From: Allobosea sp. 117
GTDB taxonomy: Bacteria; Pseudomonadota; Alphaproteobacteria; Rhizobiales; Xanthobacteraceae
Length of the DNA stretch: 64,000 nucleotides
Assembly (NCBI RefSeq): GCF_000702305.1
Contig: NZ_JNLC01000018.1
Span: 124,001-188,000, forward strand
Reading direction: 5' to 3'
In this document: positions 3,700 to 46,234 of the stretch, piece by piece
How the letters are laid out: each line of letters starts with the position of its first letter
Numbering within the stretch: position 1 is the first letter of the stretch
Program-made: the position numbers and the translations under genes
The notes under the pieces: generated by a model
What the model was told of the DNA's origin: nothing
Seen by the model: only the letters and a program-made list of their open reading frames with translations
Databases searched by the model: none

Positions 3700-3700
3700 G

Positions 3701-6765: not shown

Positions 6766-7770
6766 ATGCGCAACCTCATCACCGACGTCGACGGGCTGCG
6801 GGTCGGCCATGCGGGCGACCTCGCCATCGGCTCGGGCGTGACCGCGATCCTGTTCGACGCGCCGACCGTCGCCTCGGTCGATGTGCGCGGCGGCGGCCCG
6901 GGCACGCGCGAAACCGATCTCCTGGCGGCCGATGCGACCGTCGGCGCCGTCGACGCCCTCATGCTGTCCGGCGGCTCTGCCTTCGGGCTCGAGGCGGCGG
7001 CCGGGGTTATGGCGCTGCTCGCCGAGCGCGGCGTCGGCTTCGAGGTCCGCGGCGCGCGGGTGCCAATCGTCCCCGGTGCCATCCTGTTCGATCTGCTGAA
7101 CGGCGGCGACAAGAACTGGGGCCGCTTCCCGCCCTATCGCGAGCTCGGCTATGCGGCGGCCGAGGCGGCCGGGCTCGACTTTGCGCTCGGCAGCCACGGC
7201 GCCGGCCTCGGCGCCACTACGGCCGGCCTTAAGGGCGGGCTCGGCTCAGCCTCCATGGTGACGGCGAGCGGCCATACGGTCGGCGCGCTGGTGGCCGTCA
7301 ACGCGGCGGGCTCGGCGGTGGTGCCGGGAGGCCCGCACTTCTTCGCCGCGCCCTTCGAGCGCGAGGGCGAGTTCGGCGGGCTCGGCCTGCCCTCCCCCTT
7401 CCCCGCCCTCGGCGCGCGCCCGGCGCTGAAGAGCCTGCCGGCCGGTGCGAACACCACGCTCGCCGTGGTCGCCACCGACGCGGCGCTGACCAAGGCGCAG
7501 TGCAAGCGCATGGCGGCGATGGCGCATGACGGCCTAGTGCGCGCCATCTGGCCGGTCCACACCCCGCTCGAAGGCGACACGGTGTTCGCCGCCGCCACCG
7601 CCCGCAGGCCGCTCACCGATCCGGTCCACGGCCTCGCCTTTCTCGGCATCGCCGCGGAGGTCACGCTCGCCCGCGCCTGTGCCCGCGCCGTCTATGAGGC
7701 AACCGCTCTCCCCTACCCTGGTGCCGTGCCGGCATGGCGCGACCGCTGGCCGGAGCACGCCCCGGCCTGA
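6766..7770 (+). CDS. P1 family (S58, DmpA-like) self-processing peptidase
   Basis: Protein of 334 residues of the DmpA/BapA class, N-terminal-nucleophile hydrolases that cut themselves into two chains and act as aminopeptidase/amidase. It has the early motifs ITDVDGLRVGHAGD and GGGPGTRETDLL, the glycine-rich MLSGGSAFGLEAA, and the processing region AGANTTLAVVATDAAL. Cleavage is expected between Asn229 and Thr230, making Thr the nucleophile where DmpA uses Ser (family knowledge plus inference). No signal peptide is seen, so the enzyme is probably cytoplasmic. The gene is a single unit between the divergent ccdA gene and the proVWX operon. Confidence 0.9.
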   Translation: MRNLITDVDGLRVGHAGDLAIGSGVTAILFDAPTVASVDVRGGGPGTRETDLLAADATVGAVDALMLSGGSAFGLEAAAGVMALLAERGVGFEVRGARVPIVPGAILFDLLNGGDKNWGRFPPYRELGYAAAEAAGLDFALGSHGAGLGATTAGLKGGLGSASMVTASGHTVGALVAVNAAGSAVVPGGPHFFAAPFEREGEFGGLGLPSPFPALGARPALKSLPAGANTTLAVVATDAALTKAQCKRMAAMAHDGLVRAIWPVHTPLEGDTVFAAATARRPLTDPVHGLAFLGIAAEVTLARACARAVYEATALPYPGAVPAWRDRWPEHAPA

Positions 7771-7857
7771 GTTGTCGCCTCACTGGCCGGCGCCGTCGCA
7801 TATGTACAATCGGCAGAGCAGCCATGCGCCCGACACTCCCCTCATAAAGAGGGGCGC

Positions 7858-9066
7858 ATGAGCGAAGCACAGCCGCGTATCAAAGTTCGTGGACTGACCA
7901 AGATTTTCGGCGAAAATCCCCTGCCCGCGCTCCGGCTGCTCGAGCAGGGCAAGGGACGCGCGGAGATTCTCGCGGCCACCGGCGCGGTGGTCGGCCTTCA
8001 GGACGTGAACTTCGACGTGAACGAGGGCGAGATCCTCGTCGTCATGGGCCTGTCGGGCTCCGGCAAGTCGACCTGCCTGCGCTGCATCAACCGGCTGGTC
8101 GAGCCGACCGCCGGCAAGGTGCTGGTCGACGATATCGACGTCACCGCGCTGTCCGAGAAGGACCTGCTCGCCTTCCGCCGCACCCGCTTCGGCATGGTGT
8201 TCCAGCAATTCGCGCTGTTCCCCCACCGCACCATCCTCAAGAATGTCGAATACGGCCTCGAGATCCAGAATGTCGCCCCCGCCATCCGCACCGAGCGAGC
8301 GCTCGCCGCCATCGAGCAGGTCGGCCTGAAGGGCTGGGACCAGCATTTCCCCTCGCAGCTCTCCGGCGGCATGCAGCAGCGCGCCGGCCTCGCCCGTGCC
8401 CTCGCCCTCGACCCGGACGTGCTGCTGATGGACGAGGCCTTCAGCGCGCTCGACCCGCTGATCCGCCGCGACATGCAGGGCGAGCTCGTCACCCTGCAGA
8501 AGCGGCTCAAGAAGACCATCGTCTTCGTCTCGCACGACCTCGACGAGGCGATCGCACTTGGCGGGCGCATCGTGCTGATGAAGGACGGGCGCATCGTCCA
8601 GCAGGGCTTCGCCGCCGACTTCCTTGCCAATCCGGCCGACGACTATGTGCGCCGTTTCGTCGAGCATATCGACGTGCTCGGCGTGGTGACGGCGGGTGAC
8701 GCTATGCGCGAGGCCGCGTGCGTCGCCGAATGGAGCACCACCGCCGACGAGGCGCTCGGCCGACTGGAACAGTCCGGCGATCCGGCCGTCACCGTCGTCT
8801 GCAACGAGGGACGCTTCCAGGGCACCGTCGAGGCGCCGACCCTGCGTGGCGCTGGCACCACGCCGATCAGACTGCTGCTCTCCGACCAGGATGCCTGCGT
8901 CGTCGAGAGCGCGACGCTGACCTCGGCCGTCGCCAAGCTGGCCTCCGGACGCGGCGAGATCGCGGTGGTCGGACCGGACCGGCATCTGCGCGGCGTCATC
9001 ACCAACACCGACCTCGTGCAGGCGCTCGCCCGGCGCAACGGGTCGTCGGCCGGTACGGCGCGGTAG
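7858..9066 (+). CDS. proV: Glycine betaine/proline ABC transporter ATP-binding protein ProV
   Basis: ATPase of an osmoprotectant importer, 402 residues. It has the ProV-specific N-terminal extension (GLTKIFGENPLPALRLLEQG), Walker A GLSGSGKST near residue 68, signature LSGGMQQRAGLARALA, Walker B LLMDEAFSALDP and the switch SHDLDEA. Residues from about 285 on form a CBS-domain-like regulatory tail ending HLRGVITNTDLVQALARR, which in relatives senses ionic strength or nucleotides. The ATG is preceded by AAAGAGGGGC. It is followed nine bases later by the permease gene. Confidence 0.94.
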   Translation: MSEAQPRIKVRGLTKIFGENPLPALRLLEQGKGRAEILAATGAVVGLQDVNFDVNEGEILVVMGLSGSGKSTCLRCINRLVEPTAGKVLVDDIDVTALSEKDLLAFRRTRFGMVFQQFALFPHRTILKNVEYGLEIQNVAPAIRTERALAAIEQVGLKGWDQHFPSQLSGGMQQRAGLARALALDPDVLLMDEAFSALDPLIRRDMQGELVTLQKRLKKTIVFVSHDLDEAIALGGRIVLMKDGRIVQQGFAADFLANPADDYVRRFVEHIDVLGVVTAGDAMREAACVAEWSTTADEALGRLEQSGDPAVTVVCNEGRFQGTVEAPTLRGAGTTPIRLLLSDQDACVVESATLTSAVAKLASGRGEIAVVGPDRHLRGVITNTDLVQALARRNGSSAGTAR

Positions 9067-9075
9067 GAGGACGCG

Positions 9076-9930
9076 ATGGAGTTCGAGATCCCCCGCATCC
9101 CCCTCGCCGAGATGTGCGACGTCGCGCTCGAATGGGCGACCGAGCACTTCTCCAGCGTCACCCGCGCCATCAGCGCCGTGGTCGGCACCGGCATCGAGGC
9201 GACGACTGATTTCCTTGTCGCGCTGCCGCCGTGGCTGGTGATGGTGGCCTTCGGCCTCATCATCTGGCGGTTGACGACGCTGCGCATCGCGCTGTTCAGC
9301 GTGCTCGGCTTCGCCTTCCTGTGGAACCTGGAACTGTGGCGCGCCACGCTCCAGTCGCTGGTGCTGGTGCTGGTGTCGACGCTGTTCGCGCTGATGATCG
9401 GCATCCCGATCGGCATCGGCGCGGCACTGAGCAAGCGCTTCTGGCGTGTCGTCGGTCCTGTGCTCGACATGATGCAGACCATGCCGAGCTTCGTCTATCT
9501 GATCCCGGCGATTCCGTTCTTCGGCCTCGGCGCGGTCTCGGCGGCCTTCGCCACCATCGTCTTCGCCATGCCGCCGACCATCCGCCTCACCGCGCTTGGC
9601 ATCATGCAGACGCCGCCGGAGCTGGTGGAGGCCGCCGACGCCTTCGGCTCCAGCAAGATGCAGAAGCTGTTCAAAGTGCAGCTTCCGCTCGCCATCCCCA
9701 CCATCATGGCCGGCATCAACCAGACCATCATGCTGGCGCTCTCCATGGTGGTGATCGCCGCCATGATCGGCGCCGGCGGCCTCGGCGGCGAGGTGTGGAA
9801 GGCGATCCAGAGGCTGGAGGCCGGCCAGGGTTTCCAGGCGGGCATCGCCATCGTCGTGCTCGCCGTCATCCTCGATCGCATCACCCAGTACGTCGCCCGG
9901 CGCATGCGCATGGACAAGCACACCGCCTGA
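9076..9930 (+). CDS. proW: Glycine betaine/proline ABC transporter permease ProW
   Basis: Permease of 284 residues with a long polar N-terminus (about 1-50), as in ProW, followed by six or more membrane segments. The permease coupling loop is GIMQTPPELVEAADAFGSSKMQKLFKVQLPLAIP, with the EAA-type pattern. GIPIGIGAALSKRFWRVVGPVLD and MMQTMPSFVYLIPAIPFFGLG are characteristic of the ProW/OpuAB family. An AGGAGGACGCG Shine-Dalgarno sequence immediately precedes the ATG. It works with ProV and the binding protein encoded 71 bases downstream. Confidence 0.94.
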   Translation: MEFEIPRIPLAEMCDVALEWATEHFSSVTRAISAVVGTGIEATTDFLVALPPWLVMVAFGLIIWRLTTLRIALFSVLGFAFLWNLELWRATLQSLVLVLVSTLFALMIGIPIGIGAALSKRFWRVVGPVLDMMQTMPSFVYLIPAIPFFGLGAVSAAFATIVFAMPPTIRLTALGIMQTPPELVEAADAFGSSKMQKLFKVQLPLAIPTIMAGINQTIMLALSMVVIAAMIGAGGLGGEVWKAIQRLEAGQGFQAGIAIVVLAVILDRITQYVARRMRMDKHTA

Positions 9931-33456: not shown

Positions 33457-34611
33457 TTGATTGGCGGAGCGTGGCGTGTCGGTCTGTTGTATTCGACGAC
33501 GGGCGTGACCGCGAACATCGAGCAGACGCAGCTGAACGCAGCCCTTCTCGCGATCGAGGAAATCAACGCCGCCGGCGGTGTATTGGGGCGGCCCATCGAG
33601 CCGCTGCACGTGGATGGCGGCTCCCGCCCCCGGCGCTTCCGCGAGATCGCCGAGCGCATGCTGGGCGTCGAGGGCGTGCGCCTGCTGTTCGGCTGCTACA
33701 TGTCGAGCGTGCGCAAGGCGGTCCTGCCGCTGATCGACGGCTATCGCGGGGCGCTGTTCTACCCGACCTTCTACGAGGGGTTCGAATATTCGCCGCAGGC
33801 GATCTTCACCGGCGCGGTGCCGAACCAGAACGCCTTCCAGCTCGCGAAATACGTGCTGACCAAGCACGGCCAGCGGGTGTTCTTCATCGCCTCCAACTAC
33901 ATCTACCCTTATGAATCCAACCGGATCATGAGCGACTTCGTCACCCAGGCCCGGGGCAAGGTGGTGGACGAGCTCTACATCGCGCTCGACGCCGGCCCGG
34001 ACGAGATTTCCCGCGCCATCAAGCGGATCAAGAAGCACAGCCCGGACGTGATCTTCTCGACCATCGTCGGTCAGGCCACGGCGCCCTTCTACGAGGCTTA
34101 CCGGCAGGCCGGGCTCGATCCGTCCACCATGCCGATCGCCACCGTCACCACCTCGGAGGCGGACGTCGCGGAGATGGCGCCGGGCGTGGCGGAAGGCCAC
34201 ATCTCGGCAGCCACCTTCTTCGACACGCTGGCGACGCCGGCTGCGCGCGCCTTCGTCTCCGCTTACCGGGCCCGCTTCGGAGCGGATGCGCCGGTCCCCT
34301 CAGCCGCCGAGGCGGCCTATTTCCAGATGCATCTGGCGGCGCGGGCGCTGGCCCGGGCCGGCACGGACGATCCCCGCAGGGTCATCGCCGAGATCAAGTC
34401 GATCGAGTTCGATGCGCCGCAGGGGCGGGTGCGCGTCGACGCCGAGAACCATCACACCTATCTCTGGCCTCGCGTCGCGCGGCTCGATGCCAAGGGGCGT
34501 TTCCAGATCATCTGGAACCCGGGTGTGCGCGTGAAGCCGGACCCCTATTGCATCTCGCAGAGCCTCGACGACTGGTCGGCGGATTTCGTGGAGCAGACGG
34601 AAATCTTCTGA
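33457..34611 (+). CDS. amiC: AmiC-type amide-binding sensor
   Basis: Protein of 384 residues with the fold of periplasmic amide-binding proteins but no signal peptide, as in Pseudomonas AmiC, the cytoplasmic partner that silences AmiR until an amide binds. It keeps WRVGLLYSTTGVTANIEQTQ, LLFGCYMSSVRKAVLP, YPTFYEGFEYSP and TVTTSEADVAEM, all resembling AmiC. The TTG start is preceded by GGAGGTCTGAGG. The gene ends seven bases before amiR, as in the ami operon. The ligand could be urea or a short amide rather than acetamide (inference from the neighbouring urease and dimethylformamidase). Confidence 0.9.
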   Translation: MIGGAWRVGLLYSTTGVTANIEQTQLNAALLAIEEINAAGGVLGRPIEPLHVDGGSRPRRFREIAERMLGVEGVRLLFGCYMSSVRKAVLPLIDGYRGALFYPTFYEGFEYSPQAIFTGAVPNQNAFQLAKYVLTKHGQRVFFIASNYIYPYESNRIMSDFVTQARGKVVDELYIALDAGPDEISRAIKRIKKHSPDVIFSTIVGQATAPFYEAYRQAGLDPSTMPIATVTTSEADVAEMAPGVAEGHISAATFFDTLATPAARAFVSAYRARFGADAPVPSAAEAAYFQMHLAARALARAGTDDPRRVIAEIKSIEFDAPQGRVRVDAENHHTYLWPRVARLDAKGRFQIIWNPGVRVKPDPYCISQSLDDWSADFVEQTEIF

Positions 34612-34618
34612 GCGCGCC

Positions 34619-35227
34619 ATGACGATCCAGATCCTGCGGGACATCAGAGGACTGCGGGTGCAGGTCATCCACGCCAACGACGTGGAGGGCCAGCAGCTCG
34701 TCGACCACCTCAAGCGCATCGGCTGCGTCGTGGAGACGACATGGCCGCCGCCCTCGGCCTATGCCGAGCATGCCGATCTCGTGCTCCTCTCGGTCGACCA
34801 GGAGGATCGCGACACGCTCTACAAGCTCATCCGGTCGCAATCCGCGAACGCGCCGACGGTGATCGCCATCGTTGGCTACGAAAACCCGTCGACCCTCGCC
34901 CTCGTTCTGGAGAGCGGGGCGCTCGCCGTGATCGAGCGCCCAATCAAGCCGTTCGGCCTGCTGACGCAGATCACCCTGGCGCGGAGCCTGTGGCTTGAGC
35001 GGAAGGAGCAGGCCCGCCGCATACGCAAGCTCGAGCGCAAGGTCACGAGCATGCAGCAGATCCAGAAGGCCAAGGCCATCCTCATGGCGAGCCACAATAT
35101 CTCAGAGGACGAGGCCTATCAGTCGCTGCGCCGGCAGGCGATGGCCAAGCGGATATCGATGGAGGAGATGGCGACCGCCATCATCAACGCGAGCGAGCTC
35201 TTGAATTTCCGTCCCGATAATGCTTAG
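34619..35227 (+). CDS. amiR: AmiR-type ANTAR antiterminator
   Basis: Protein of 202 residues: an N-terminal pseudo-receiver domain (about 10-125; no full phosphorylation pocket, VLLSVDQED where a receiver has its Asp), a coiled coil at about 122-145 (ERKEQARRIRKLERKVTSMQ) and a C-terminal ANTAR domain (IQKAKAILMASHNISEDEAY, then LRRQAMAKRISMEEMATAII). ANTAR domains bind RNA hairpins with six-base loops having A at position 1 and G at 4 and prevent termination. Two such hairpins lie just downstream, before the urease operon. AmiC, encoded upstream, is the expected inhibitor. Confidence 0.92.
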   Translation: MTIQILRDIRGLRVQVIHANDVEGQQLVDHLKRIGCVVETTWPPPSAYAEHADLVLLSVDQEDRDTLYKLIRSQSANAPTVIAIVGYENPSTLALVLESGALAVIERPIKPFGLLTQITLARSLWLERKEQARRIRKLERKVTSMQQIQKAKAILMASHNISEDEAYQSLRRQAMAKRISMEEMATAIINASELLNFRPDNA

Positions 35228-35271
35228 CTTGCTTTCGTCGCATGGCTGCATTGCGCTGGCCGTCGACATAG

Positions 35272-35297
35272 CCGGATAATCAAGGCTGATTATCCGG
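35272..35297 (+). promoter_or_regulatory. ANTAR-type hexaloop hairpin P1
   Basis: A perfect 10-bp stem (CCGGATAATC with GATTATCCGG) closes the six-base loop AAGGCT: A at loop position 1 and G at position 4, the published ANTAR target rule. It lies 45 bases after amiR and 11 bases before the terminator hairpin. Expected to bind the AmiR ANTAR domain. Confidence 0.75.
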
Positions 35298-35308
35298 AGA
35301 GGCGATGT

Positions 35309-35349
35309 AGCCCGGCAAACCCCATGACATGGGTTTGGCGGGCTTTTTT
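35309..35349 (+). terminator. Terminator-like hairpin in the urease leader
   Basis: A long stem (left arm 35309-35322, right arm 35331-35344, one internal G-G mismatch) with a CATGACAT loop, followed by TTTTTT. It would stop transcription between amiR and the urease genes unless overridden. Its left arm shares bases 35309-35312 with a weak alternative 3-bp hairpin (35301-35312, loop GATGTA). Confidence 0.85.
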
Positions 35350-35355
35350 GTTTGC

Positions 35356-35375
35356 GCGGAACAGGGACGTTCCGC
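35356..35375 (+). promoter_or_regulatory. Second ANTAR-type hexaloop hairpin
   Basis: A perfect 7-bp stem (GCGGAAC with GTTCCGC) closes the six-base loop AGGGAC, again A1 and G4. It sits seven bases after the T-run of the terminator-like hairpin, whereas classical dual-hexaloop targets have both hairpins before or overlapping the terminator. Confidence 0.6.
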
Positions 35376-35749
35376 CGATCCAATGACATTGCCGCGGCGG
35401 CATTTACCGGTCGCCCCGTCCCTGCAGGGTTGCTTCCACCGCCACACGGCTGGATGGCCGGTCCTGACGTCGCTCCGTCACACCTCTGAACGATCCCGGT
35501 TTGCGCCACGCGGCGCCACAGGAGGCTTGCGCATGCAGCATGGTGACATTTCGTCGGGAGATATGTGTCCGGCTAAGCATTGGCGCTCGATAACGGCCGG
35601 GCGGATCGTGTGCGGGATCGTCGCACTCGAAGACTCTATCGATGGCATCCCCGGCGAGGCTCCCGCCCGCAGGTGATGCAGCGTCGGCCCTGTGCGCATC
35701 GCGCAGGGTCCGGCCCGGAACGGATTCATTGCGTCGAGCTGTCTCTCCC

Positions 35750-36214
35750 ATGCTGATGATCGAACGTGTTCTCGGAAGTCGACTGGAGCCTTCGCTGCAC
35801 GAGCGGATCCACCGCCTGGAGCACCACGGCACCGTCGATGTCGTGACGGTCTCCGCGATGGACATGTCGCGCCGGCGCCTGCGGCTGCTTTCCGCAAAGG
35901 GAGAGGACATCGCGATCGCCCTGCCCCGCGACCAGAAGCTGTTCGACGGCGCCGTGCTGCTGATCGACGACGAGCGGGCGATCGTGGTGCGGGCCGAGGT
36001 CGAGCGCTGGCTGAGCTTCCAGCCGCGCTCCATCGCGGAAGGGGTCGAGCTCGGCTATCACGCCGGCAATCTGCACTGGCGCGTGCGCTTCGCGGGCGAA
36101 CGGCTGCTCGTCGCGCTCGAAGGCCCGATCGAGACCTATTATGCGCGGCTCGACGCGCTGCCCGGCGTCTCCTCGATCCCCCGTCTGGTCGTGACCGGGG
36201 AGATGGCGGCATGA
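35750..36214 (+). CDS. ureE: Urease accessory protein UreE
   Basis: Nickel metallochaperone of urease, 154 residues from the chosen ATG (a second ATG two codons later is possible). Seen: MIERVLGSRLEPSLHERIHRL, then DMSRRRLRLLSAKGEDIAIALPRDQKLFDGAVLL (UreE N-domain) and VELGYHAGNLHWRVRFAGERLLVALEGPIETYYARLDAL, where the conserved metal-binding His of the C-domain falls in GYHAGNLHW. There is no His-rich tail, as in a shorter UreE class. First gene of the urease operon after the structured leader; it overlaps ureF by four bases. Confidence 0.88.
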   Translation: MLMIERVLGSRLEPSLHERIHRLEHHGTVDVVTVSAMDMSRRRLRLLSAKGEDIAIALPRDQKLFDGAVLLIDDERAIVVRAEVERWLSFQPRSIAEGVELGYHAGNLHWRVRFAGERLLVALEGPIETYYARLDALPGVSSIPRLVVTGEMAA

Positions 36215-36876
36215 TCGGGCAGCTCCTCGCCATCTGGCAGGCCGACACGGCCTTTCCGAGCGGTGGCTTCGCTTTCTCCAACGGGCTGGAAGGCCTCGCG
36301 GCGCTCTCCGGGCCGATCGACGAGATGGAGCTGGAGAATGTCGTCGCCAACGCACTGCGCCGCCGCTGGGCGAGCGCCGATCGGGTGGCCTTGGCTCGGG
36401 CCTATCGGGTGGCCGACGATCTCGATCGCGTCGAGGCGATCGATCGCGAGGTCGAGGCCTCGACCCTCGCCGAGCCGTTCCGCCTCGGTTCCCGGCGCAA
36501 CGGGGCGAGCCTGATCGCGGCCCATGCGCGCATCGGCACGCCCGGTGCGCGGGAATTCCAGGGGCGGGTGCGGCAGGGCCGCGCGCTCGGCCATCTGCCG
36601 GTGGCGCAGGGCGTGCTGTGGCGCGGCGCCGGGCTGGATGCCGCCAGCGCCATGCTGGCGTCCGGCTATGTGGCGCTTTCCGGCTTCACCACGGCGGCGG
36701 TCCGGCTCGGCCTGCTCGGCGCGGTGAGCGCGCAGGGCATTGTGCGCCGCCTCCTGCCGCTGCTGGCCGAACTCGCGGCCGCTCCGCTGCCGTCCCGGAT
36801 CGAAAGCTTCTCCCCGCGTCTCGACATCGCCGCGATGCGTCATGCGCGCGGCGAGGTCCGCCTGTTCTCCAATTGA
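36211..36876 (+). CDS. ureF: Urease accessory protein UreF
   Basis: All-helical protein of 221 residues that gates nickel delivery in the UreD-UreF-UreG complex. Start MIGQLLAIWQADTAFPSGGFAFSNGLEGL (the SGGFxxSxGLE pattern of UreF) and end PRLDIAAMRHARGEVRLFSN. The ATG overlaps the ureE TGA (ATGA). Central segments FQGRVRQGRALGHLPVAQGVLW are typical. Confidence 0.93.
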   Translation: MIGQLLAIWQADTAFPSGGFAFSNGLEGLAALSGPIDEMELENVVANALRRRWASADRVALARAYRVADDLDRVEAIDREVEASTLAEPFRLGSRRNGASLIAAHARIGTPGAREFQGRVRQGRALGHLPVAQGVLWRGAGLDAASAMLASGYVALSGFTTAAVRLGLLGAVSAQGIVRRLLPLLAELAAAPLPSRIESFSPRLDIAAMRHARGEVRLFSN

Positions 36877-36890
36877 GTGCTTGAACGCCC

Positions 36891-37586
36891 ATGCTGCTGA
36901 CGCCGACCGAACTGGAACGCCTGACGATCTTCTCCGCGGCGGAGCTGGCGCGAAAGCGCCGCGCGCGCGGCTGCAAGCTCAACCATCCGGAGGCGGTGGC
37001 CTTGATCACCGACGAGATACTGGAAGGCGCGCGCGACGGCCGTTCGGTCGCCGAGCTGATCGGCCATGGCGCGACCATCCTGACCAGCGCGGACGTGATG
37101 CCGGGCGTGCCGGCGATGATCGACATACTGCAGGTCGAGTGCGTGTTCCCCGACGGCACGAAGCTGGTGACCGTGCACGAGCCGATCCGTCCCGAGGAAG
37201 GCTCGGCCGCAGCGACGGTGACACCCGGCGAGAGCCTGCCGCTGGACGGCGAGATCGAGCTCAATGCCGGGCGCCCGAAAGTCACGCTTCAGGCCGTCAA
37301 CACCGGCGACCGGCCGGTGCAGATCGGCTCGCACTTCCATTTCTTCGAGGTGAACCGCGCGATGGAGTTCAACCGCGCGGCGGCCTTCGGCATGCGACTC
37401 GACATTCCGGCAGGGACAGCGCTGCGCTTCGAGCCCGGCCAGTCCAAGGAGGTCACGCTTGTCCCGTTCGGCGGCCGGCGCTTCCTCGGCGGCCTGAACG
37501 GCCTCTCGGACGGCGACACCACCACGGCGGAAGCCCGCGACGCAGCGCTCGAACGAGCGCGCGCCGCCGGCTTCCGGGGCGCGTGA
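36891..37586 (+). CDS. ureAB: Fused urease gamma/beta subunit
   Basis: Single protein of 231 residues joining UreA (gamma, about 1-100: [68 protein letters not shown]) to UreB (beta, about 120-225: [69 protein letters not shown]). Separate ureA and ureB genes are usual in proteobacteria; fusions are known in Helicobacter and some actinobacteria. It sits between ureF and ureC. Confidence 0.93.
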
Positions 37587-37596
37587 GGAGGCGGCG

Positions 37597-39309
37597 ATGG
37601 CGATCATCCGGCGTCGCGACTACGCAGCCCTCTACGGCCCGACCGTCGGTGACGGCGTCCGCCTGGGCGACACGTCCCTCGTCGCCGTGGTCGAGAAGGA
37701 CCATGCGGTCTATGGCGACGAATGCCTGCATGGCGGCGGCAAGACGCTGCGCGACGGCATGGGTCTCGCCGCCGGCATCACCAATGCCGAGGGCGCACTC
37801 GACTTCCTGCTCTGCAACGTGACGGTGATCGACGCCGTCCTCGGCGTGGTGAAGGGCGATCTCGGCATCAAGGACGGGCGCATCGTCGGCATCGGCAAGG
37901 CCGGAAATCCCGCCGTCATGGACGGGGTCGATCCGCGGCTCATCGTCGGCGCCGGCACTACGGTGCGCGACTGCGAGGGGCTGATCGCCACCGCCGGCGG
38001 CATCGACGTGCATGTGCATTTCGATAGCGCCGGCCTTGTCGAGCACGCGCTGGCGAGCGGGATCACCACCATGCTGGGCGGCTCGCTCGGGCCGATCACC
38101 GTGGGCATCGATTCCGGCGGGCCGTTCAACACCGGCAAGATGCTGCAGGCCTCCGAGGCCTGGCCGATGAATTTCGGCTTCCTCGGGCGCGGCAACAGCC
38201 ACATTCCCGGCTCGCTGAAGGAGCAACTGGAAACCGGCTGCCTTGGCCTCAAGATCCATGAGGACTGGGGCGCCATGCCGGCGACCATCGACGCCTGCCT
38301 GCGCTCGGCGGACGAACTCGACTACCAGGTCCAGCTCCACACGGACACGCTGAACGAAAGCGGCTTCCTCGAAGACACGCTGGCCGCCATCGGCGGGCGC
38401 ACCATCCACATGTACCACACGGAGGGCGCGGGCGGCGGCCACGCGCCGGACATCATCCGCGTGGCGGGCGTAGCGCATTGCCTGCCCTCGTCGACGAACC
38501 CGACCAATCCCTACACGGTCAACACGTTCGACGAACATCTCGACATGACGATGACCTGCCACCACCTCAATCCGGCCCTGCCGGAGGACGTGGCCTTCGC
38601 AGAGAGCCGCATCCGCGCGCAGACCATCGCCGCCGAGGACATCCTCCACGACATCGGCGCCATCTCGATGCTCGGCTCGGACAGCCAGGGCATGGGCCGC
38701 ATCCACGAGGTGATCTGCCGGACCTGGCAGCTCGCCTCCAAGATGAAGGACCAGCGTGGCGCCCTGCCGGAAGAGAAGCCGGGCTTCGGCGACAATGAGC
38801 GCATCCGGCGCTACATCGCGAAATACACCATCAACGCGGCGCGCACCTTCGGCATCGCCGAACATGTCGGCTCGCTGGAAGCCGGCAAGATGGCCGACAT
38901 CGTGGTCTGGCGGCCGGCCTTCTTCGGCATCAAGCCCGAACTCGTCATCAAGGGCGGCTTCATCGCTTGGGGCGCGATGGGCGACAGCGCCGCCTCGCTG
39001 ATGACCTGCGAGCCCGTGCTGCTGCGCCCGCAATGGGGCGCCTTCGGCCGCGCCGCACCGGCGCTCTCGGCTTGCTTCGTCCATCCGCTCGCCATTGCAC
39101 GCGGGCTCGGCGAGGAACTCGGCCTGTCGAAGCGGCTGCTTCCGGCCAGCGGCACGCGCGGACTGCGCAAGTCGGACATGCTGCACAACGACGCCTGCCC
39201 GAACATCCGCGTCGATCCGCAGACCTTCGACGTGTTCGTGGACGGGGAGCTCGCGACCTGCGAGCCCGCCGAGACGCTGCCGCTCGCGCAGCGCTACATG
39301 CTGCGGTGA
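37597..39309 (+). CDS. ureC: Urease alpha subunit (divergent pocket)
   Basis: Catalytic subunit, 570 residues. All nickel and catalytic residues of urease are present: His139/His141 (GGIDVHVHF), carbamylated Lys219 (GLKIHEDWG), His in [25 protein letters not shown], flap Cys321-His322 (TCHHLNPAL) and Asp362 ([12 protein letters not shown]). It differs from standard ureases near the substrate: SQAMGRVGE is SQGMGRIHE, and the GTHATTCTPG region reads [10 protein letters not shown] and is about three residues shorter. It converts urea to ammonia and carbamate if the pocket still accepts urea. Confidence 0.92.
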
Positions 39310-39314
39310 CCGCC

Positions 39315-39965
39315 ATGCTGGAATGGGGAGCGACACAGGGGATCGGACCGCGGACGTCGTCCGCGGCGCGGATCGGCATCGGCGGCCCGGTCGGGTCGGG
39401 CAAGACCGCGCTGATCGAGCGGCTGATCCCGGCGCTCGACGCGCGCAACGTCGATTTCGCGGTCGTCACCAATGATCTCGTCACCAAGGAGGACGCCGAG
39501 CGGCTGCGACGCTCCGGCCTGATCGACCCCGAACGCGTGTCGGCGGTCGAGGCCGGCGCCTGCCCGCATACCGTCATTCGGGAAGACCCCACCCTCAACA
39601 TGGCGGCGGGCGACGACCTGGAGAGCCGTTTCCCGGGGCTCGAGCTGGTGATCTTCGAATCCGGCGGCGACAACCTCGCCTCGACCTTCTCGCTGGACCT
39701 CGTCGACTGGTGGATGTTCGTGATCGATGTCGCCGGCGGCGACGACATCCCCCGCAAGAAGGGTCCCGGCGTCCTGAAATGCGACCTGCTGGTGGTGAAC
39801 AAGGTCGATCTCGCGCCGCATGTCGGGGTCGATCTGTCCTCCATGCTCGCCGAGGCACAGGCGGCGCGGGGCGAGCGCCCCGTCGTCGCCACCAATGCCC
39901 GGTCGGGCGAAGGCGTGGACACGGTGGCCGACATGATCTGTCGCGCCGTGCTGTTTCACACATGA
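39315..39965 (+). CDS. ureG: Urease accessory GTPase UreG
   Basis: SIMIBI GTPase of 216 residues powering nickel insertion. P-loop GGPVGSGKT at residues 23-31, nickel-site Cys-Pro-His in [26 protein letters not shown] and the specificity motif VNKVDLAP. The ATG at 39315 is used; a GTG at 39306 would overlap the ureC stop (GTGA) and is also plausible. Ends with a four-base overlap with ureD. Confidence 0.95.
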
Positions 39966-40825
39966 GGCCGGCGACCTATTCCGAAGGTATGGGCCCCTCC
40001 GCCGCCGGTCGCCGGCGGGCCGCCGAACTCGTCTTCGCGCAAGGAGGAGGACGATCCGCCCTCATCCGCCAGATCGCGCCCTACCCCTTTCACATCACGC
40101 GCCCTTTCGCGCTCGATGCCGAGCGCGCTGACCTCGCCACGCTCTATCTCCAGTCGGCATCCGGAGGGATCTATCGCGGCGACGAGCTGAGCCTGCGCAT
40201 CGATGTGCGTGATGGTGCGCTCGCCCATGTCACCAGCCAGGCGGCGACCGTGGTGCACGACACCGGCGCGCGGCCCGCCAGCCAGCACACGGTCCTGCGC
40301 TTGGGACGGGAGGCCTTCACGGCGCTAACCCTCGATCCACTGATCCTGTTTCCCGGTGCGGAGCTCGACACCCGCACCGAAATCCATCTCGCCGAGGGCG
40401 CGTGCGCGATCTTCGCGGAAGGCGTGGCCTGGCACGACTATTCCGGCGAGGGGCGCCCGTTCGGCCGGCTCTCCTCGGAGACGCTGGTGTTCGACGGGGG
40501 CGATCGGACGGCCGTGATCGACCGCGCGACGATCACCGGCGCGGAGCTCGCCGGCGCCGCCTCAATTCTGGGCGCCGGGGCCGGCGCCTTCGGCTCGGCC
40601 CTGCTGCTGGGGCCGACCGAGCGCCTGCCGGAGGCGGCAGCCATCGAGGACATGCTGGATCGCACCGGCTGCCTCGGTGGCGCCTGCGCCGCGCCGAACG
40701 ACATGGGGATTTCCGTCCGGATGATCGCGCCGAACGGAGGGCAGATCGTGCGCGCCGTCGAAGGTCTCTTTTCCCTCGGTGTCGAAAGGATGCTCGGCTT
40801 TGAGCCCGCTCGTCGCCGCAAATGA
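39962..40825 (+). CDS. ureD: Urease accessory protein UreD
   Basis: Scaffold protein of 287 residues for the urease activation complex. It has the UreD pattern: [57 protein letters not shown] and [31 protein letters not shown]. Its place at the end of the operon (ureE-F-AB-C-G-D) differs from the common ureD-first order. The ATG overlaps the ureG stop by four bases. Confidence 0.93.
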
Positions 40826-41094
40826 GCCCCGCGGGGCGCTCCGAACCCGGCTGCGCCGGCGGCGGGCTGCGGGCCGCCGCTTCGACCGGGGTGCCGTCTT
40901 CGCGGGCATTCCCGCTGCGCGCTCCGACCATGAGCGCGCATCCCGGGTTCGCGTGAGACGGGTGGGATACTGTCTATATGAAGAGCGCCATCAGTTAAAT
41001 GCGTACGGATGTTAGATAATTATGGATCGATGTAGTCATTCATACCGATAATGTAGGAATGCATATGAATATATTCACGGCTTCAAAGGAATAT

Positions 41095-41108
41095 TCTCAA
41101 TATTGAGA
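41095..41108. repeat. 14-bp perfect palindrome TCTCAATATTGAGA
   Basis: Perfect inverted repeat in the AT-rich region upstream of urtA; possible operator. Confidence 0.6.
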
Positions 41109-41239
41109 TGCACATAAATTCATCAATACGCTGATCAATATTTTGCCACACGTTTTCCGCACGAGAATATTATTATAACTGAGAAGAAATATTATTGACA
41201 GGTAAGAATGCTTCGACATAGCGTCTTGTCGTAGCGATC

Positions 41240-41253
41240 GGCGCTCCGAGTGC
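41240..41253 (+). promoter_or_regulatory. Candidate sigma-54 promoter core of the urt operon
   Basis: GG-N10-GC (CGGCGCTCCGAGTGCTT) with the spacing of -24/-12 elements, 63 bases before the urtA start. Flanking bases match the full consensus only partly, and no clear NtrC palindrome was seen upstream, so this is weak. Confidence 0.3.
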
Positions 41254-41316
41254 TTGGCCTGGGGCTGGCGGGTGCCCGCGCTTTCACCGTTTCCATACTT
41301 CCAAGGGGTCGCAACG

Positions 41317-42618
41317 ATGGATTTCACGCGTAGGAAATTGCTCAAGACCGCCGGCCTCGCATCTGCAGCATTGGCGGCTCCGCATCTCTGGATCCCCGGC
41401 GAGGCCTGGGGCGCGGCGCTCAAGAAGGGCGAGCCGCTCAAGGTCGGCCTGCTGTTCTCCCTCACCGGCGCACTGGCCGTTCCGGAGGAGGATTCGACCC
41501 TCGTGCTCCAATACGCCTTCGACGAGATCAACAAGGCCGGCGGCGTCGGCGGCGTGCCGGTCGAGCCGGTGATCGTCGACGCCAAGTCGGACTTCAACGT
41601 CTATTCGGAGAAGACCAAGGAGCTGATCCTGCGCGAGAAGGTCACCGCGATCTTCGGCTGCTACACCTCGGCGAGCCGCAAGGCGATCCTGCCGACGGTC
41701 ATGCAGCGCGATCACCTGCTCTATTATCCGACCTGCTACGAAGGCGCGGAGTGCACGCAGAACACGATCTGCACCGGCCCGCTCGCCAATCAGCACTCGA
41801 AGGACCTGATCCCCTTCATGGTGCAGAACTTCGGCAAGAAGGTCTTCTTCGTCGGCTCCAATTACGTCTGGCCGAAGGAGTCGAACAAGAACGCCAAGAT
41901 CTGGCTGCAGCAGGCGGGCGGCGAGCTGCTCGGCGAGGAATACATCCCGCTCGGCAGCTCGGAGTTCGGCCCGGTGCTGAACAAGATCCGCGACGCCAAG
42001 CCGAACTTCATCTTCTCCACCGTGGTCGGCGCCTCCGACATCGCCTTCCACAAGCAGTTCAAGCAGGAAGGCTTCAAGGTCGACTCCATGCCGATCGCCT
42101 CGCTCACCACCGGCGAGATCGAGACGCGGGCGATGGGCGCCGAGTTCGGCGCCGGGCACTTCCTCTCCGCGCCGTATTTCCAGACGCTCGACAACCCCAC
42201 GAACCAGAAGTTCGTCGAGGGCTTCCTGAAGAGCAAGTACGGCAAGAACGGCACGACCCACTACAACATGGAGGAGACCTACCTCTCCGCCTATGTGTTC
42301 AAAGCCGGCTTCGAGAAGGCGGCGGCGGCCGTCGGCTTCGAGAACGTTACGCCGCGCGCCATCCGCGACAATTCGGGCGGCATCCGCATCGAGGACAACG
42401 TCTCGCCGGAAGGCCTGGTCTGGATCGACGAGAACAACTTCAACACCTGGCTGAAGCCCAAGATCGGCCAATGCCAGGCGGACGGCACGTTCAAGGTAGT
42501 GAAGGCCGCCTCCGAGCAGGTCGCACCCGATCCCTATTCGATCTACCCCGATGCCGGCGTGTGCACCAAGGAAGGCCTCAAGGCCCCCGACGGCAAGGTC
42601 CGCAAGAGCGTCATCTGA
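41317..42618 (+). CDS. urtA: Urea/short-chain amide ABC transporter binding protein (UrtA/FmdD type)
   Basis: Periplasmic binding protein of 433 residues. A twin-arginine signal TRRKLLKTAGLASAALAAPHLW leads the protein, as in UrtA. The mature part has LKVGLLFSLTGALAVPEEDSTLVLQYAFDEIN, FGCYTSASRKAILP, YYPTCYEGAECTQNT and SLTTGEIETRAMG, all UrtA/FmdD-like and related to AmiC upstream. The start is fixed by AAGGGGTCGCAACG. Urea is the usual ligand; the Methylophilus FmdD relative binds formamide and acetamide too, and the dimethylformamidase genes nearby make amides plausible. Confidence 0.9.
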   Translation: MDFTRRKLLKTAGLASAALAAPHLWIPGEAWGAALKKGEPLKVGLLFSLTGALAVPEEDSTLVLQYAFDEINKAGGVGGVPVEPVIVDAKSDFNVYSEKTKELILREKVTAIFGCYTSASRKAILPTVMQRDHLLYYPTCYEGAECTQNTICTGPLANQHSKDLIPFMVQNFGKKVFFVGSNYVWPKESNKNAKIWLQQAGGELLGEEYIPLGSSEFGPVLNKIRDAKPNFIFSTVVGASDIAFHKQFKQEGFKVDSMPIASLTTGEIETRAMGAEFGAGHFLSAPYFQTLDNPTNQKFVEGFLKSKYGKNGTTHYNMEETYLSAYVFKAGFEKAAAAVGFENVTPRAIRDNSGGIRIEDNVSPEGLVWIDENNFNTWLKPKIGQCQADGTFKVVKAASEQVAPDPYSIYPDAGVCTKEGLKAPDGKVRKSVI

Positions 42619-42631
42619 CCGCGATCAGACT

Positions 42632-42657
42632 GCCTCGCCGGCTCCGGCCGGCGGGGC
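42632..42657 (+). other. Intercistronic hairpin after urtA
   Basis: A 10-bp stem (GCCTCGCCGG with CCGGCGGGGC, one G-T pair) with a CTCCGG loop and no T-run. Such hairpins after binding-protein genes protect the upstream message and keep permease levels lower. Confidence 0.6.
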
Positions 42658-42753
42658 GGCCGCCCCAAAGAAACGATCAGGCCACCAGGAGTTCAGACGC
42701 GGCGGAATCCGCGGTGGATATCGGTGGCAGCTTTCCGCGACGAAGGGTTTGCG

Positions 42754-43629
42754 ATGGACTTCGGATCGATCCTGAACGCGCTCATACTGGGTATCAGCAT
42801 CGCGAGTATCTGGCTTATCGCCGCTCTAGGGCTGACCATCATCTATGGAGCTGCCGGCGTCATCAACATGGCGCATGGCGAATTCATCATGCTGGGCGCC
42901 TACAGCTCCTACATGCTGCAATATTACGTCGGGGTCCCGTATCTCTTCTGCATTCCGATCTCCTTCGTCATCGTCGCCCTGGTCGGGCTCGTGCTCGAGC
43001 GTGGGCTGATCCAGTATCTGTACAAGCGCCCGCTCGACACGCTGCTCGCGACCTACGGCGTCTCGCTCGTGCTGATGCAGGGCGTACGGCTGATCTTCGG
43101 CTCGGACCCGAAGTATCTGGCGGTGCCGGAGATCTTCTCCTCGAACCTCTCGCTCGGCTTCGTGTCGATCTCCACTTTCCGCGTCATCGTGTTCGGCATC
43201 ACCGCGCTTCTGGTGCTGGCGCTCTGGGCGCTGTTTTACAAGACGCGCTTCGGCGTGCAGGTGCGCGCGGTAATGCAGAACAAGGAGATGGCCGCCTCCT
43301 TCGGCATCAATTCCAGCCGCATCTACATGCTCACCTTCGCGCTCGGCGCGGGGCTGGCCGGCGTTGCCGGCTCGCTGTTCGGCGTGCTGAACATCGTGCT
43401 GCCGACCATGGGGTCGAGCTATGTCGTGCAGGCCTTCCTCATGGTCGTGGTAGGCGGCGGCTCGCTCGCTGGCAGCGTCGTCGCGAGCGGCGTGACGGGC
43501 GAGCTGCAGTCGGTCTTCGCCTTCTTCACCAACGACACTTTCGCGCGCTTCGTCATCTTCGTGCTGATCGTCGTCTTCCTCAGGTTCCGGCCCCAGGGCC
43601 TCTTCGCCCAGGCAGGAGCGCGTCGATGA
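42754..43629 (+). CDS. urtB: Urea/amide ABC transporter permease UrtB
   Basis: LivH-like permease of 291 residues with about eight membrane segments. MDFGSILNALILGISIASIW starts it; GLTIIYGAAGVINMAHGEFIMLGAY, LATYGVSLVLMQGVRLIFGSDPKYL and the coupling loop RFGVQVRAVMQNKEMAASFGIN are characteristic of UrtB. The start at 42754 is preceded by GAAGGGTTTGCG. Its stop overlaps a 14-codon frame that precedes urtC. Confidence 0.92.
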   Translation: MDFGSILNALILGISIASIWLIAALGLTIIYGAAGVINMAHGEFIMLGAYSSYMLQYYVGVPYLFCIPISFVIVALVGLVLERGLIQYLYKRPLDTLLATYGVSLVLMQGVRLIFGSDPKYLAVPEIFSSNLSLGFVSISTFRVIVFGITALLVLALWALFYKTRFGVQVRAVMQNKEMAASFGINSSRIYMLTFALGAGLAGVAGSLFGVLNIVLPTMGSSYVVQAFLMVVVGGGSLAGSVVASGVTGELQSVFAFFTNDTFARFVIFVLIVVFLRFRPQGLFAQAGARR

Positions 43630-43676
43630 AACGGAAGAGCAACCTGAAGATCACGCGGGACGCGGGCTGAGGCGCC

Positions 43677-44780
43677 ATGGGAAATCTCTATCACAACAAG
43701 ACGGCGCAGTGGGTGGCCTATGCGGCGTTCTTCGCCGCCCTGGCCGCCATCCCGCTGAACATCGACGACGACTTCCTGCTGAACCAGCTCGCCACCTACG
43801 GCGTCTACGGCATGCTCGCTTTGTCGATCAGCCTGTGCTGGGGATTTGGCGGCATCCTCAATCTCGGGCAGGGCATCGCCTTCGGTCTCGGCGCCTACGG
43901 CATGGCGATGACCATGCAGATGCAGACGCAGACGGAATCGAACCCGATCCCGCCCTTCATGCTGAACAACAGCCTGGATTACCTGCCCCTGCTCTGGCAG
44001 CCCTTCCAGAGCACCATGCTGGGGCTGATCCTCGCGGTGGCGGTGCCGACGCTGTTCTGCGCGATCTTCGGCGGCATCATGTTCCGCGCGCGCGTCTCGG
44101 GTCCGTTCTTCGCGATCATGACGCTCGCGATGCTGTCCGCCTTCTACACGATCATCCTCGACCGGCAGCCCTATACCGGCGGCGTCAACGGCATCACCCC
44201 GCCCTCGCCGTTCCAGTTCGCCGGCATCGAGGTCGATCCCTACAGCCCGCTCGCCTATTGGTGCGTGTTCTTCGCGCTGCTGATCGCCGCCGTGCTGGCC
44301 AAGCTGATCACCCAGAGCTGGTTCGGCCTCGTCACCCAGGCGATCCGCGACGATGCCGAGCGCGTGCGCTTCCTCGGCTACAGCGTCGCCGGCTACGAGA
44401 CGATGATCTACACGGTCGCCGGCCTTATCGCGTCGGTCGCCGGCTGCCTGTGGGTGATGCTGGTGCAGTATGTGTCGCCGGCTCAGCTCGATGTCGGCTT
44501 CAGTCTCTCCATGGTCATCTGGGCGGCGATCGGCGGGCGGCTGTCGCTGATCGGCTCGATCGTCGGCGCCTTCGTCATCCAGGGCGCGCAGAGCTATCTC
44601 GGCGACACCTTCCTCTCCACCTGGCTGCTGATCCTGGGCGCCTTCTTCATCGTGATCGTGCGCTTCCTGCCGAACGGTCTTTCGAGCCTGCTCGAAGCCG
44701 CCCTCGGCCTGCTCTCGACCCGGAAGAACGGCGCCTCCCCGGAGCAGTCGAACGGCACCAAGCCGGTTCCAGCGGAGTAA
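43677..44780 (+). CDS. urtC: Urea/amide ABC transporter permease UrtC
   Basis: LivM-like permease of 367 residues. SISLCWGFGGILNLGQGIAFGLGAYGMAM, RARVSGPFFAIMTLAM, LDRQPYTGGVNGITPP and the coupling loop LVTQAIRDDAERVRFLGYSV are typical UrtC. It pairs with UrtB in the membrane. The C-terminal tail is polar. urtD follows after six bases. Confidence 0.93.
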   Translation: MGNLYHNKTAQWVAYAAFFAALAAIPLNIDDDFLLNQLATYGVYGMLALSISLCWGFGGILNLGQGIAFGLGAYGMAMTMQMQTQTESNPIPPFMLNNSLDYLPLLWQPFQSTMLGLILAVAVPTLFCAIFGGIMFRARVSGPFFAIMTLAMLSAFYTIILDRQPYTGGVNGITPPSPFQFAGIEVDPYSPLAYWCVFFALLIAAVLAKLITQSWFGLVTQAIRDDAERVRFLGYSVAGYETMIYTVAGLIASVAGCLWVMLVQYVSPAQLDVGFSLSMVIWAAIGGRLSLIGSIVGAFVIQGAQSYLGDTFLSTWLLILGAFFIVIVRFLPNGLSSLLEAALGLLSTRKNGASPEQSNGTKPVPAE

Positions 44781-44786
44781 AGGCCG

Positions 44787-45533
44787 ATGCCGGGACTTCT
44801 CGAAATCCACAACCTCTCCAAGAGCTTCGACACCATCAAGGTGATCGACGACTTCAGTCTCGAAGTCGTCGAAGGCACGCTCTGCTGCCTCGTCGGCCCG
44901 AACGGGGCCGGCAAGACCACGACGATGGATCTCATCACCGGACGCATCAAGCCGACCGCCGGCAGGGTCGTCTTCGCGGGCCAGGACATCACCGGCCTCG
45001 ACGAGCACGTCATCGCCCGCGCCGGGATCGGCCGGAAGTTTCAGGTGCCGGCGGTCCTGCGCGACCTGACGGTCCGGCAGAACCTTACCGTCGCCTATAG
45101 CCGGCAGACCAATCCGTTCTGGAACCTGTTCCGCTTCCGCGCGCCGGGCCTCGACCAGAAGCTCGACGAGATCGCAACGCTCGCGGGCCTCACCGACAGG
45201 CTGAACGAGCGCGCCGGCATCCTCTCCCATGGCGAGACCCAGTGGCTGGAGATCGGCATGGTGTTGATGCAGGAGCCGCGGCTCATGCTGATGGACGAAC
45301 CCATCGCCGGCATGACCGAGAGCGAGATCGAGAAGACGGCCCGCATCTTCAGGGCACTCCGCCAGACCACGACCCTCATTGTGGTCGAGCACGACATGGG
45401 CTTCGTCCGCGAGATCGCCGACGTCGTCACCGTCATGCACATGGGCTCGCTGCTGGCGCGGGGCTCGATCCAGGAGATCGAGGCCAACCCGCGGGTGCGC
45501 GACGTCTATCTCGGCGAGCAGGAGGCCGCCTGA
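44787..45533 (+). CDS. urtD: Urea/amide ABC transporter ATP-binding protein UrtD
   Basis: ATPase of 248 residues: Walker A GPNGAGKTT, the UrtD-type GRKFQVPAVLRDLTVRQNL, a signature loop reading LSHGETQWLEIGMVL (SHGE in place of SGGQ, usual for UrtD), Walker B LMLMDEPIAGMTE and VVEHDM. LivG-like in the Liv-family transporters. Urt complexes use one UrtD and one UrtE. Confidence 0.94.
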   Translation: MPGLLEIHNLSKSFDTIKVIDDFSLEVVEGTLCCLVGPNGAGKTTTMDLITGRIKPTAGRVVFAGQDITGLDEHVIARAGIGRKFQVPAVLRDLTVRQNLTVAYSRQTNPFWNLFRFRAPGLDQKLDEIATLAGLTDRLNERAGILSHGETQWLEIGMVLMQEPRLMLMDEPIAGMTESEIEKTARIFRALRQTTTLIVVEHDMGFVREIADVVTVMHMGSLLARGSIQEIEANPRVRDVYLGEQEAA

Positions 45534-45535
45534 CC

Positions 45536-46234
45536 ATGCTGCTCAACTTCGACAACGTCTCCTCCTATTACGGCGCGACGCGCATCCTGCGCGACTTCTC
45601 CTTCGAGATGGAGAAGGGGCAGTGCCTGTGCGTGCTCGGGCGCAACGGTGTCGGCAAGACGACGCTGATGCGCACCATCATGGGGCTGACCGACCGCTCG
45701 ACCGGCTCGATCCGCATCAATGGCGAGGCGATCGAGGGCAAGGCCCCCTATCAGCGCGCGACCTACGGCATCGGCTATGTGCCGCAGGGGCGCGGCATAC
45801 TCTCGGACTTCACGGTGCGGGAGAACATCCTGCTCGGCACCTTCGCCCGCAAGGACAAGGCGCCGGAGATTCCGGAAATCTGCCTGCGCATCTTCCCCTA
45901 TCTGCGCGACAACCTTGACCGGCGGGCCGGACTGCTGTCCGGCGGCCAGAAGCAGCAGCTCGCCATTGCCCGCGCGCTCGCCGTCGGGCCGCAGGTGCTG
46001 CTGCTGGACGAACCGACGGAAGGCATCCAGCCGAACATCGTCCACGAGATCGGCGAGATCCTGCAGATGCTGAACCGGGAGCTCGGCATCAGCCTCATCC
46101 TGACCGAGCAGCACATCAAGGTGGCCCGCAAGCTCGGCGACGCCTTCCTGATGGTCGACAACGGCCGCGTCGTCGCCCGCGGCGCCATCGCGGAGATGAC
46201 CGACGAGCTCGTCGAAGAGCACATGACCATCTGA
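45536..46234 (+). CDS. urtE: Urea/amide ABC transporter ATP-binding protein UrtE
   Basis: Second ATPase, 232 residues: Walker A GRNGVGKTT, YVPQGRGILSDFTVRENILLG, signature LSGGQKQQLAIARALAV, Walker B LLLDEPTEGIQPNIV and TEQHIKVARKLGD. The ATG lies two bases after the urtD stop. Last transporter gene; about 190 bases with a promoter separate it from the dimethylformamidase genes. Confidence 0.94.
   Translation: MLLNFDNVSSYYGATRILRDFSFEMEKGQCLCVLGRNGVGKTTLMRTIMGLTDRSTGSIRINGEAIEGKAPYQRATYGIGYVPQGRGILSDFTVRENILLGTFARKDKAPEIPEICLRIFPYLRDNLDRRAGLLSGGQKQQLAIARALAVGPQVLLLDEPTEGIQPNIVHEIGEILQMLNRELGISLILTEQHIKVARKLGDAFLMVDNGRVVARGAIAEMTDELVEEHMTI

Follow-up and report, generated by a model that had tools for sequence, protein, structure and literature searches.

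A candidate AmiC/AmiR antitermination leader with a third hexaloop hairpin ahead of a urease operon in Allobosea sp. 117

The region at about 35236-35375 of the DNA analysed here is very probably the 5' leader of a urease operon and an antitermination switch operated by AmiC and AmiR. The DNA, referred to below as the window, is a 64,000 nt stretch of Allobosea sp. 117 (contig NZ_JNLC01000018.1, positions 124,001-188,000 of the forward strand). The leader contains a hexaloop hairpin (P1), a second hexaloop (P2) overlapping the left arm of an intrinsic terminator, and a third hexaloop hairpin (P3) past the terminator. Judged by its sequence, the P1-P2-terminator portion is the canonical dual-hexaloop design of Ramesh 2012 as given in the main text of that paper (PMC3369931), and so of an already known type; the new part is P3, a third hexaloop that could act only after read-through.

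The genes on either side fit such a switch, and all those described here are transcribed rightwards (+ strand). Upstream are an amiC-like ligand sensor gene (33457-34611) and an amiR-like ANTAR regulator gene (34619-35227). The AmiC-like protein matches Pseudomonas aeruginosa AmiC (1pea) with a phmmer E of 2.5e-105, the best among solved relatives, with UrtA-type binding proteins ranking next; what we take to be the AmiC pocket positions are mostly kept, with F here in place of P. aeruginosa P107, and do not distinguish an amide from urea. The AmiR-like protein matches AmiR (1qo0, E 2.4e-22), again the best solved relative, and EutV (6wsh, E 2e-10), scores over the PF03861 cut-off, and is one of five proteins in the genome to do so. 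Its Ser58 aligns with the phospho-acceptor Asp54 of EutV; the AmiC-like protein thus adjoins an ANTAR protein whose pseudo-receiver has no phospho-acceptor Asp, and AmiR is therefore presumably controlled by ligand rather than by phosphorylation. Three of the four EutV residues that contact the loop according to the accessible portion of PMC8934654 (Lys149, Glu160, Tyr164 and Arg142) are kept in an alignment to 6wsh, with K152, E163 and Y167 at the places of the first three and M145 at that of R142.

Downstream of the leader, a short open reading frame (35533-35676) that starts MQHGDISS behind AGGAGG is probably a remnant of the start of amiE, judging from these eight residues and from gene order in relatives. 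It is followed by ureE, ureF, a fused ureAB, ureC, ureG and ureD (35750-40825), with ureE, ureAB and ureC over their NCBIfam cut-offs, and then by urtABCDE-like ABC transporter genes (41314-46234), with urtB over and urtA below its cut-off. Between ureD and urtA there is an AT-rich gap of about 490 bases (40826-41313) in an otherwise GC-rich operon; the gap has no hexaloop hairpin of at least 4 pairs with A at loop position 1 and G at position 4 (A1/G4), and the urt genes may therefore have a separate promoter.

In the leader itself, P1 (35272-35297) has ten Watson-Crick pairs and the loop AAGGCT, which obeys the A1 and G4 rule, and is separated by a 3 nt linker (35298-35300) from P2 (35301-35312; GGC[GATGTA]GCC), a spacing within the 2-25 nt range between ANTAR hairpins reported in the text of PMC8164766. 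The P2 loop has G at position 4 and G, not A, at position 1, and the right arm of P2 shares bases 35310-35312 with the left arm of the terminator (35310-35343; -23.9 kcal/mol), which runs into a T6 tract at 35344-35349. Six bases after the T tract is P3 (35356-35375), with 7 pairs and the loop AGGGAC. The hairpins that the earlier sequence-only reading of the window had described are real, with letters and coordinates exact on re-checking the sequence.

Folding in silico gives pair probabilities of 0.98-1.0 for P1, P3 and the base of the terminator, and the fold of 35265-35400 has z = -5.2; the energy model also closes the P1 loop further by an extra A-U pair, giving 11 pairs and four loose bases. 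The terminator is far more stable than P2 (-23.9 vs -3.6 kcal/mol), and enforcing P2 takes the leader fold from -56.8 to -50.8, a cost of 6 kcal/mol that bound AmiR would have to pay and that fits a protein-dependent antiterminator. A possible promoter for the leader, TTGAAT-N17-TTAGCT, overlaps the end of amiR (35201-35229, + strand); a TTGA.../TTAG... pair is present in 16, partial in 6 and absent in 9 of 31 leaders (window included), and TTGAAT-N17-TTAGCT scores below threshold in a promoter scan. The window has no Rfam match at gathering score, nor does 35100-35800 have a related one at E up to 5; we know of no ANTAR model in Rfam 15.

Comparison with relatives carries the argument for the leader. 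AmiR relatives were collected from the order (50 of 297 genomes, E up to 1e-15), the family (18 of 198, E up to 1e-25), the phylum (13 of 398, E up to 1e-25), named genome contigs (22 loci) and plasmids (157 records matched, with 9 used as leaders among the matches listed), and leader types were set by hand, the window's type having an AmiR about 50% or more identical and the formamidase type about 34-42%. Relatives of the window's type again have P1, P2 and the terminator after amiR, and in their parsed leaders the P1 loop starts 18-21 nt before P2. All 22 aligned leaders (window included) have G at loop position 4, in P1 and P2 alike; at position 1, P1 has A in 19 leaders and G in the other 3, and P2 has G (13 leaders), A (5) or T (4), and published curation, in the text of PMC8164766, tolerated a single point variation in the loop. 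RNAalifold predicts 18 pairs for the 22 leaders, and at 13 of these, P1 pairs among them, at least one sequence has changed on both sides with pairing kept; the base of the terminator stem is near invariant.

The sequence-only reading had made its proposal depend on conservation of the hairpins in related genomes and on covariation of their stems, and both were found. Conservation, covariation and gene order uphold its AmiR-type antitermination leader, next to amiC and amiR and ahead of urease, but not its layout, in which P1 and P3 formed the hexaloop pair. That pairing was rejected because it is P2 that matches the geometry known for such leaders, at a position that hardly varies. The reading had itself mentioned 35301-35312 as a weak alternative that could be the true second element, and its constant spacing from P1, invariant G4 and overlap with the terminator arm identify this P2 as the canonical second hexaloop.

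A leader model found matches in 9 of 385 genomes of the class, the window's own included, where nothing besides the window leader matches at E up to 1. The first pass of this search is lossy, and missed a stretch of contig C14 in the same genome that scored a weak 22.2 bits when searched directly; this is the formamidase-type leader of a second AmiC/AmiR pair. A search for the same leader at 26 amiE loci of the phylum gave one clear match (L149). In three urt leaders from Rhizobium johnstonii and Agrobacterium (L131, L132 and L136, at about 3640-3780), P2, the terminator and P3 are present and there is no clear P1 at the usual place, which counts against the scheme.

By default, we infer, RNA polymerase would halt at 35344-35349, because the terminator outcompetes P2. 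Binding of a ligand by AmiC, either a short amide or urea, would release AmiR, which would then bind the hexaloop of P1 and next that of P2; P2 would thereby take the left arm of the terminator, and transcription would continue into ureEFABCGD. A part for P3 in this decision at the terminator (35310-35343) was considered and rejected, as P3 is transcribed only once the polymerase is past the T tract. Being made on read-through RNA only, and able to fold only after the polymerase has escaped, P3 would act afterwards, and its best interpretation is as a third AmiR site that stands alone.

An unusual feature of these leaders is that P3, the additional hairpin that the sequence-only reading had placed after the terminator, is conserved as a third hexaloop. 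To be scored, a hexaloop hairpin needed 4 or more uninterrupted pairs and a loop starting 5-60 nt past the T tract; each of the 16 letter combinations possible at loop positions 1 and 4 was counted. An A1/G4 hairpin is found in 31 of 42 AmiR-linked leaders, vs 0, 2 and 2 of the 42 in the three windows that follow along the sequence; A..G leads the letter pairs, the next best occurring in 8 leaders. The 31 include the L040 match at +59, which is probably due to chance. With stems of at least 5 pairs the count is 26 of 42 (vs 0, 1 and 0 in the later windows), and 300 dinucleotide shuffles of the 42-leader set give a mean of 1.8 leaders and a maximum of 7. Many of the 42 leaders remain kin, and stricter counts were therefore made: with relatives above 0.8, 0.7 and 0.6 similarity removed, P3 is present in 25 of 36, 18 of 28 and 13 of 18 leaders, with at most 2 in any later window (0, 1 and 0 at the 0.6 limit).

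The 42-leader set was assembled from the parsed loci. No leader was parsed in L021, L034, L035, L047, L051, L053-L057, L081 or L091-L093, and that of L096 is weak; L047, with a weak T tract, was added by hand. Left out were L020 (without a leader), L022, L023, L029 and L030 (misparsed), the exact copies L026, L067, L068, L070, L076 and L077, L007-L010 and L012 (taken as copies of L037, L046, L038, L039 and L041), and L038 and L134 (a 0.9 similarity limit), together with leaders of another kind, the tandem-type L123, L126 and L127 and the single-module L119. P3 is missing or degenerate in 11 of the 42 (L013, L043, L044, L047, L049, L071-L075 and L079); in L044 the hairpin is present with a loop that begins with G, as also appears by eye in L043 and L047. 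Past the terminators of L072, L074 and L075, leaders of the window's family, there are short hairpins of GAC...GTC type, whose loops, by eye, break the A1/G4 rule or have five bases.

The P3 stem also covaries by three of five measures. In an alignment of 20 hairpins (A2), picked partly by eye and including L013, L043 and L044 despite their failing the strict rule, the covariation score is 0.426 vs 0.201, 81.4% vs 67.3% of cells are paired, and 27 vs 14.7 cells have two-sided changes, each value reached by 0 of 500 shuffles; the inner pairs are biased by selection of the hairpins and the outer pairs less so. Pairing falls to 28-59% when the alignment is slid. Two other measures are not above shuffles: the pairs with a two-sided change (5 vs 4.7; 362 of 500 shuffles) and the further pair types (11 vs 10.0; 159 of 500). 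P1, P2 and the terminator are also present in formamidase-type leaders, from more distant AmiR proteins, with a post-terminator hexaloop in 2 of 19 (vs 1, 3 and 0 of 19 in the later windows), so P3 belongs to the AmiR branch of the window.

The chance of about 1 in 500 per 500 bases that the sequence-only reading gave for a single hairpin of this kind overstated the case. Five A1/G4 hexaloop hairpins with 7 or more pairs lie on the + strand of the window, P1 and P3 included, and the three others correspond to about 0.02 per 500 bases, or nearer 1 in 40; the strong evidence is therefore comparison and conservation rather than an odds figure. These five hairpins are what can be said for regarding P1 and P3 as products of chance or of composition in GC-rich DNA, an explanation that conservation against the position and shuffle controls, together with stem covariation, leaves with virtually no credibility.

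If P3 is a free-standing site, it would most simply hold AmiR on the read-through mRNA, as titration feedback or as a relay, and a sponge or relay is no more than our best guess. As a sponge, P3 would have each urease mRNA remove active AmiR and so damp its own induction, somewhat like EutX RNA in its action on EutV; this is possible, and we put it forward tentatively. P3 keeps its A1/G4 loop and its stem though it lies past the point of termination and on read-through RNA only, and its loop lies anywhere between 13 and 47 nt from the T tract (leaving out two sites at +59), the kind of variation that an independent site would show. There are precedents: the accessible text of PMC5821096 describes an EutV site in EutX that is not tied to a terminator and sequesters EutV, and single hexaloops have been proposed as the minimal ANTAR target (PMC8934654, the portion available). 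However, the EutX site is a dual hexaloop, and a single one may bind weakly.

Alternatively, P3 could act locally, with bound AmiR holding the nascent RNA or message and blocking Rho, decay or re-pausing, or favouring translation, which we regard as somewhat unlikely. Its place soon past the terminator is conserved, and in the window it precedes a long untranslated stretch, both in favour of a local role; however, no further element common to the leaders was noticed, no motif search having been made, and a second terminator-like site follows P3 in only 7 of 42 leaders, although the scan used detects even the main terminator in just 20 of the 42.

In the plasmid leaders L126 (5008-5200, Rhizobium etli), L127 (4775-4965, Roseibium) and L123 (2120-2320, Shinella WSD5-1) two successive hexaloop/terminator modules, P1-P2-T1 and P3-P4-T2, can be seen by eye before urtA or amiE. 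This tandem arrangement is a possible double gate, and some loops of the second module, by eye, have no G4. Such leaders lend something to the notion that P3 is the surviving first half of a lost second module (P3-P4-terminator 2). We consider it improbable, since a preserved A1/G4 loop and stem covariation across so many leaders are hardly to be expected of a relic, and the AmiR proteins of L126 and L127 are just 28% and 33% identical to that of the window.

The gene order of relatives links the leader to urease and points to its history. Six Methylopilaceae loci (L037-L041 and L046) have amiC-amiR-leader-amiE followed by urease genes, with an extra gene interposed in L038 and L039. In Chenggangzhangella methanolivorans (L040) the amiE frame (6805-7773) is short of the usual 345 codons and the ureF match is split in two (8477-9104), which may reflect frameshifts in the gene or the assembly. 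The window and Ancylobacter moscoviensis (L036) keep the leader in a gap of about 500 bases between amiR and ureE, too short for amiE, which is absent there. In the AmiR tree these two lie inside the Methylopilaceae branch (100/99, a branch of nine rows) and apart from the amidase-linked AmiR of other Ancylobacter; one genome whose leader matches that of A. moscoviensis (G805) has the second, amidase-linked kind of AmiR too, with amiE. This gene order and the AmiR tree suggest that the amiE-urease operon was transferred with its leader, and that amiE was then lost in the lineage.

A leader left behind in this way might be the dead relic of an amidase operon, with urease under its own promoter and free of AmiR, and several observations lean in that direction: amiE lies between the leader and ureE in relatives, the window keeps about eight codons that resemble its start, and the amiE of this genome is on another contig. 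However, between the window and L036, neither of which has amiE there, P1 and P3 show pair-keeping changes only (three two-sided and two one-sided, with 0 of 17 pairs broken), and the P1 loop of L036 has G at position 1. The stretch from P3 to the ribosome site, by eye, aligns poorly between the two. Selection on the leader thus seems, from these pair-keeping changes, to have outlived amiE. The operon would have some 515 nt of 5' UTR ahead of ureE, and the switch could be bypassed by a promoter that has escaped notice closer to that gene; PMC12316311, in the part available, predicts sigma-54 control of urease in many alpha- and betaproteobacteria, but no sigma-54 pattern occurs between the leader and ureE at up to 2 mismatches. 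Since, in addition, this amiE-less order is also found in Shinella, on another branch of AmiR, we judge a dead relic to be very unlikely, and a working switch ahead of urease remains the preferred reading.

The single close amiE of this genome (the sole match at E up to 1e-120) is on contig C16; amiC- and amiR-like genes lie close to it, and any leader there is at best decayed (12.9 bits, no T tract). The leader-like stretch there (L109, 5197-5420) has A at loop position 4, and is apparently a decayed or diverged switch.

Other arrangements are found on plasmids and elsewhere. A plasmid of A. polymorphus has amiC-amiR-leader-urtABCDE-amiE-ureEFABCGD. One of Shinella sumterensis has amiC-amiR-leader-ureEF, then gamma/alpha subunit genes, ureG, ureD and a hupE/ureJ gene, with amiE absent, and its leader contains P1, P2, the terminator and P3; an unannotated S. 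oryzae plasmid has nearly the same leader and ureE start. As the cases fall on more than one branch of AmiR, urease has come to lie behind such a leader more than once. A Rhodospirillales metagenome-assembled genome (L047, 31-9953) has the order ureC-ureG-ureD-amiC-amiR-leader-urt, so that urease precedes the regulators and the leader precedes the transporter. A counter-example is genome G115 (L110, 6059-8332), with amiC-amiR-ureEFABCGD: in it ureE begins about 19 nt after amiR; there is no recognisable leader between them, and just weak 4-pair hexaloop candidates upstream of amiC.

The leader resembles the ANTAR dual-hexaloop leaders of EutV/eutP, NasR/nasF and AmiR/amiE, as set out in the available text of PMC3369931 and PMC8934654, in its P1, terminator-overlapping P2, short linker, U-tract terminator, neighbouring ANTAR gene and invariant G4, and differs from them in the G that starts the P2 loop of the window, in the third A1/G4 hexaloop past the terminator, and in having urease downstream. 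Compared by protein, the AmiC-like sensor and pseudo-receiver ANTAR regulator are like those of P. aeruginosa (1pea, 1qo0), but the window order is amiC-amiR-leader-target, the target is urease and amiE is absent; early termination in the P. aeruginosa amiE leader is reported in PMC8297930, and a plasmid amiC-amiR-amiE with transporter genes in PMC13209695, each in its accessible portion. P3 is reminiscent of EutX/Rli55 in being an ANTAR site untied to a terminator, but it has just one hexaloop and is part of the target operon's own mRNA, whereas EutX, as described in the text available of PMC5821096, is a separate small RNA with a riboswitch and a dual hexaloop. Closest in nutrient field are the ANTAR sites that the main text of Ramesh 2012 (PMC3369931) predicts upstream of urea transporters, an RNA of the same kind, and urt-like genes lie behind many of the leaders here; that main text has 0 occurrences of 'urease'. 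The sequence-only reading knew of ANTAR control for amidase, nitrate and ethanolamine genes and not for urease; in the literature searched, most subscription papers and all supplements being out of reach, neither a urease under an ANTAR leader nor a post-terminator hexaloop is described.

Collectively, these leaders may represent a three-hexaloop ANTAR architecture, in which two loops decide on antitermination and the third, present on read-through RNA only, binds AmiR and sets the gain of the switch by feedback or relay, and in which the module, placed repeatedly before urease and urea-transport operons, would make the urease of these Hyphomicrobiales inducible through RNA by urea or an amide; we find this plausible, at a little short of even chances. 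If it is true, urease joins the amidase, nitrate and ethanolamine genes as a target of an RNA-binding antiterminator, and, as there is a conserved ANTAR loop where the terminator is unaffected by it, current ANTAR models would miss a step after read-through. The sufficiency of a single hexaloop, as proposed in the part of PMC8934654 available, would also become testable on a natural, conserved example with many ready variants.
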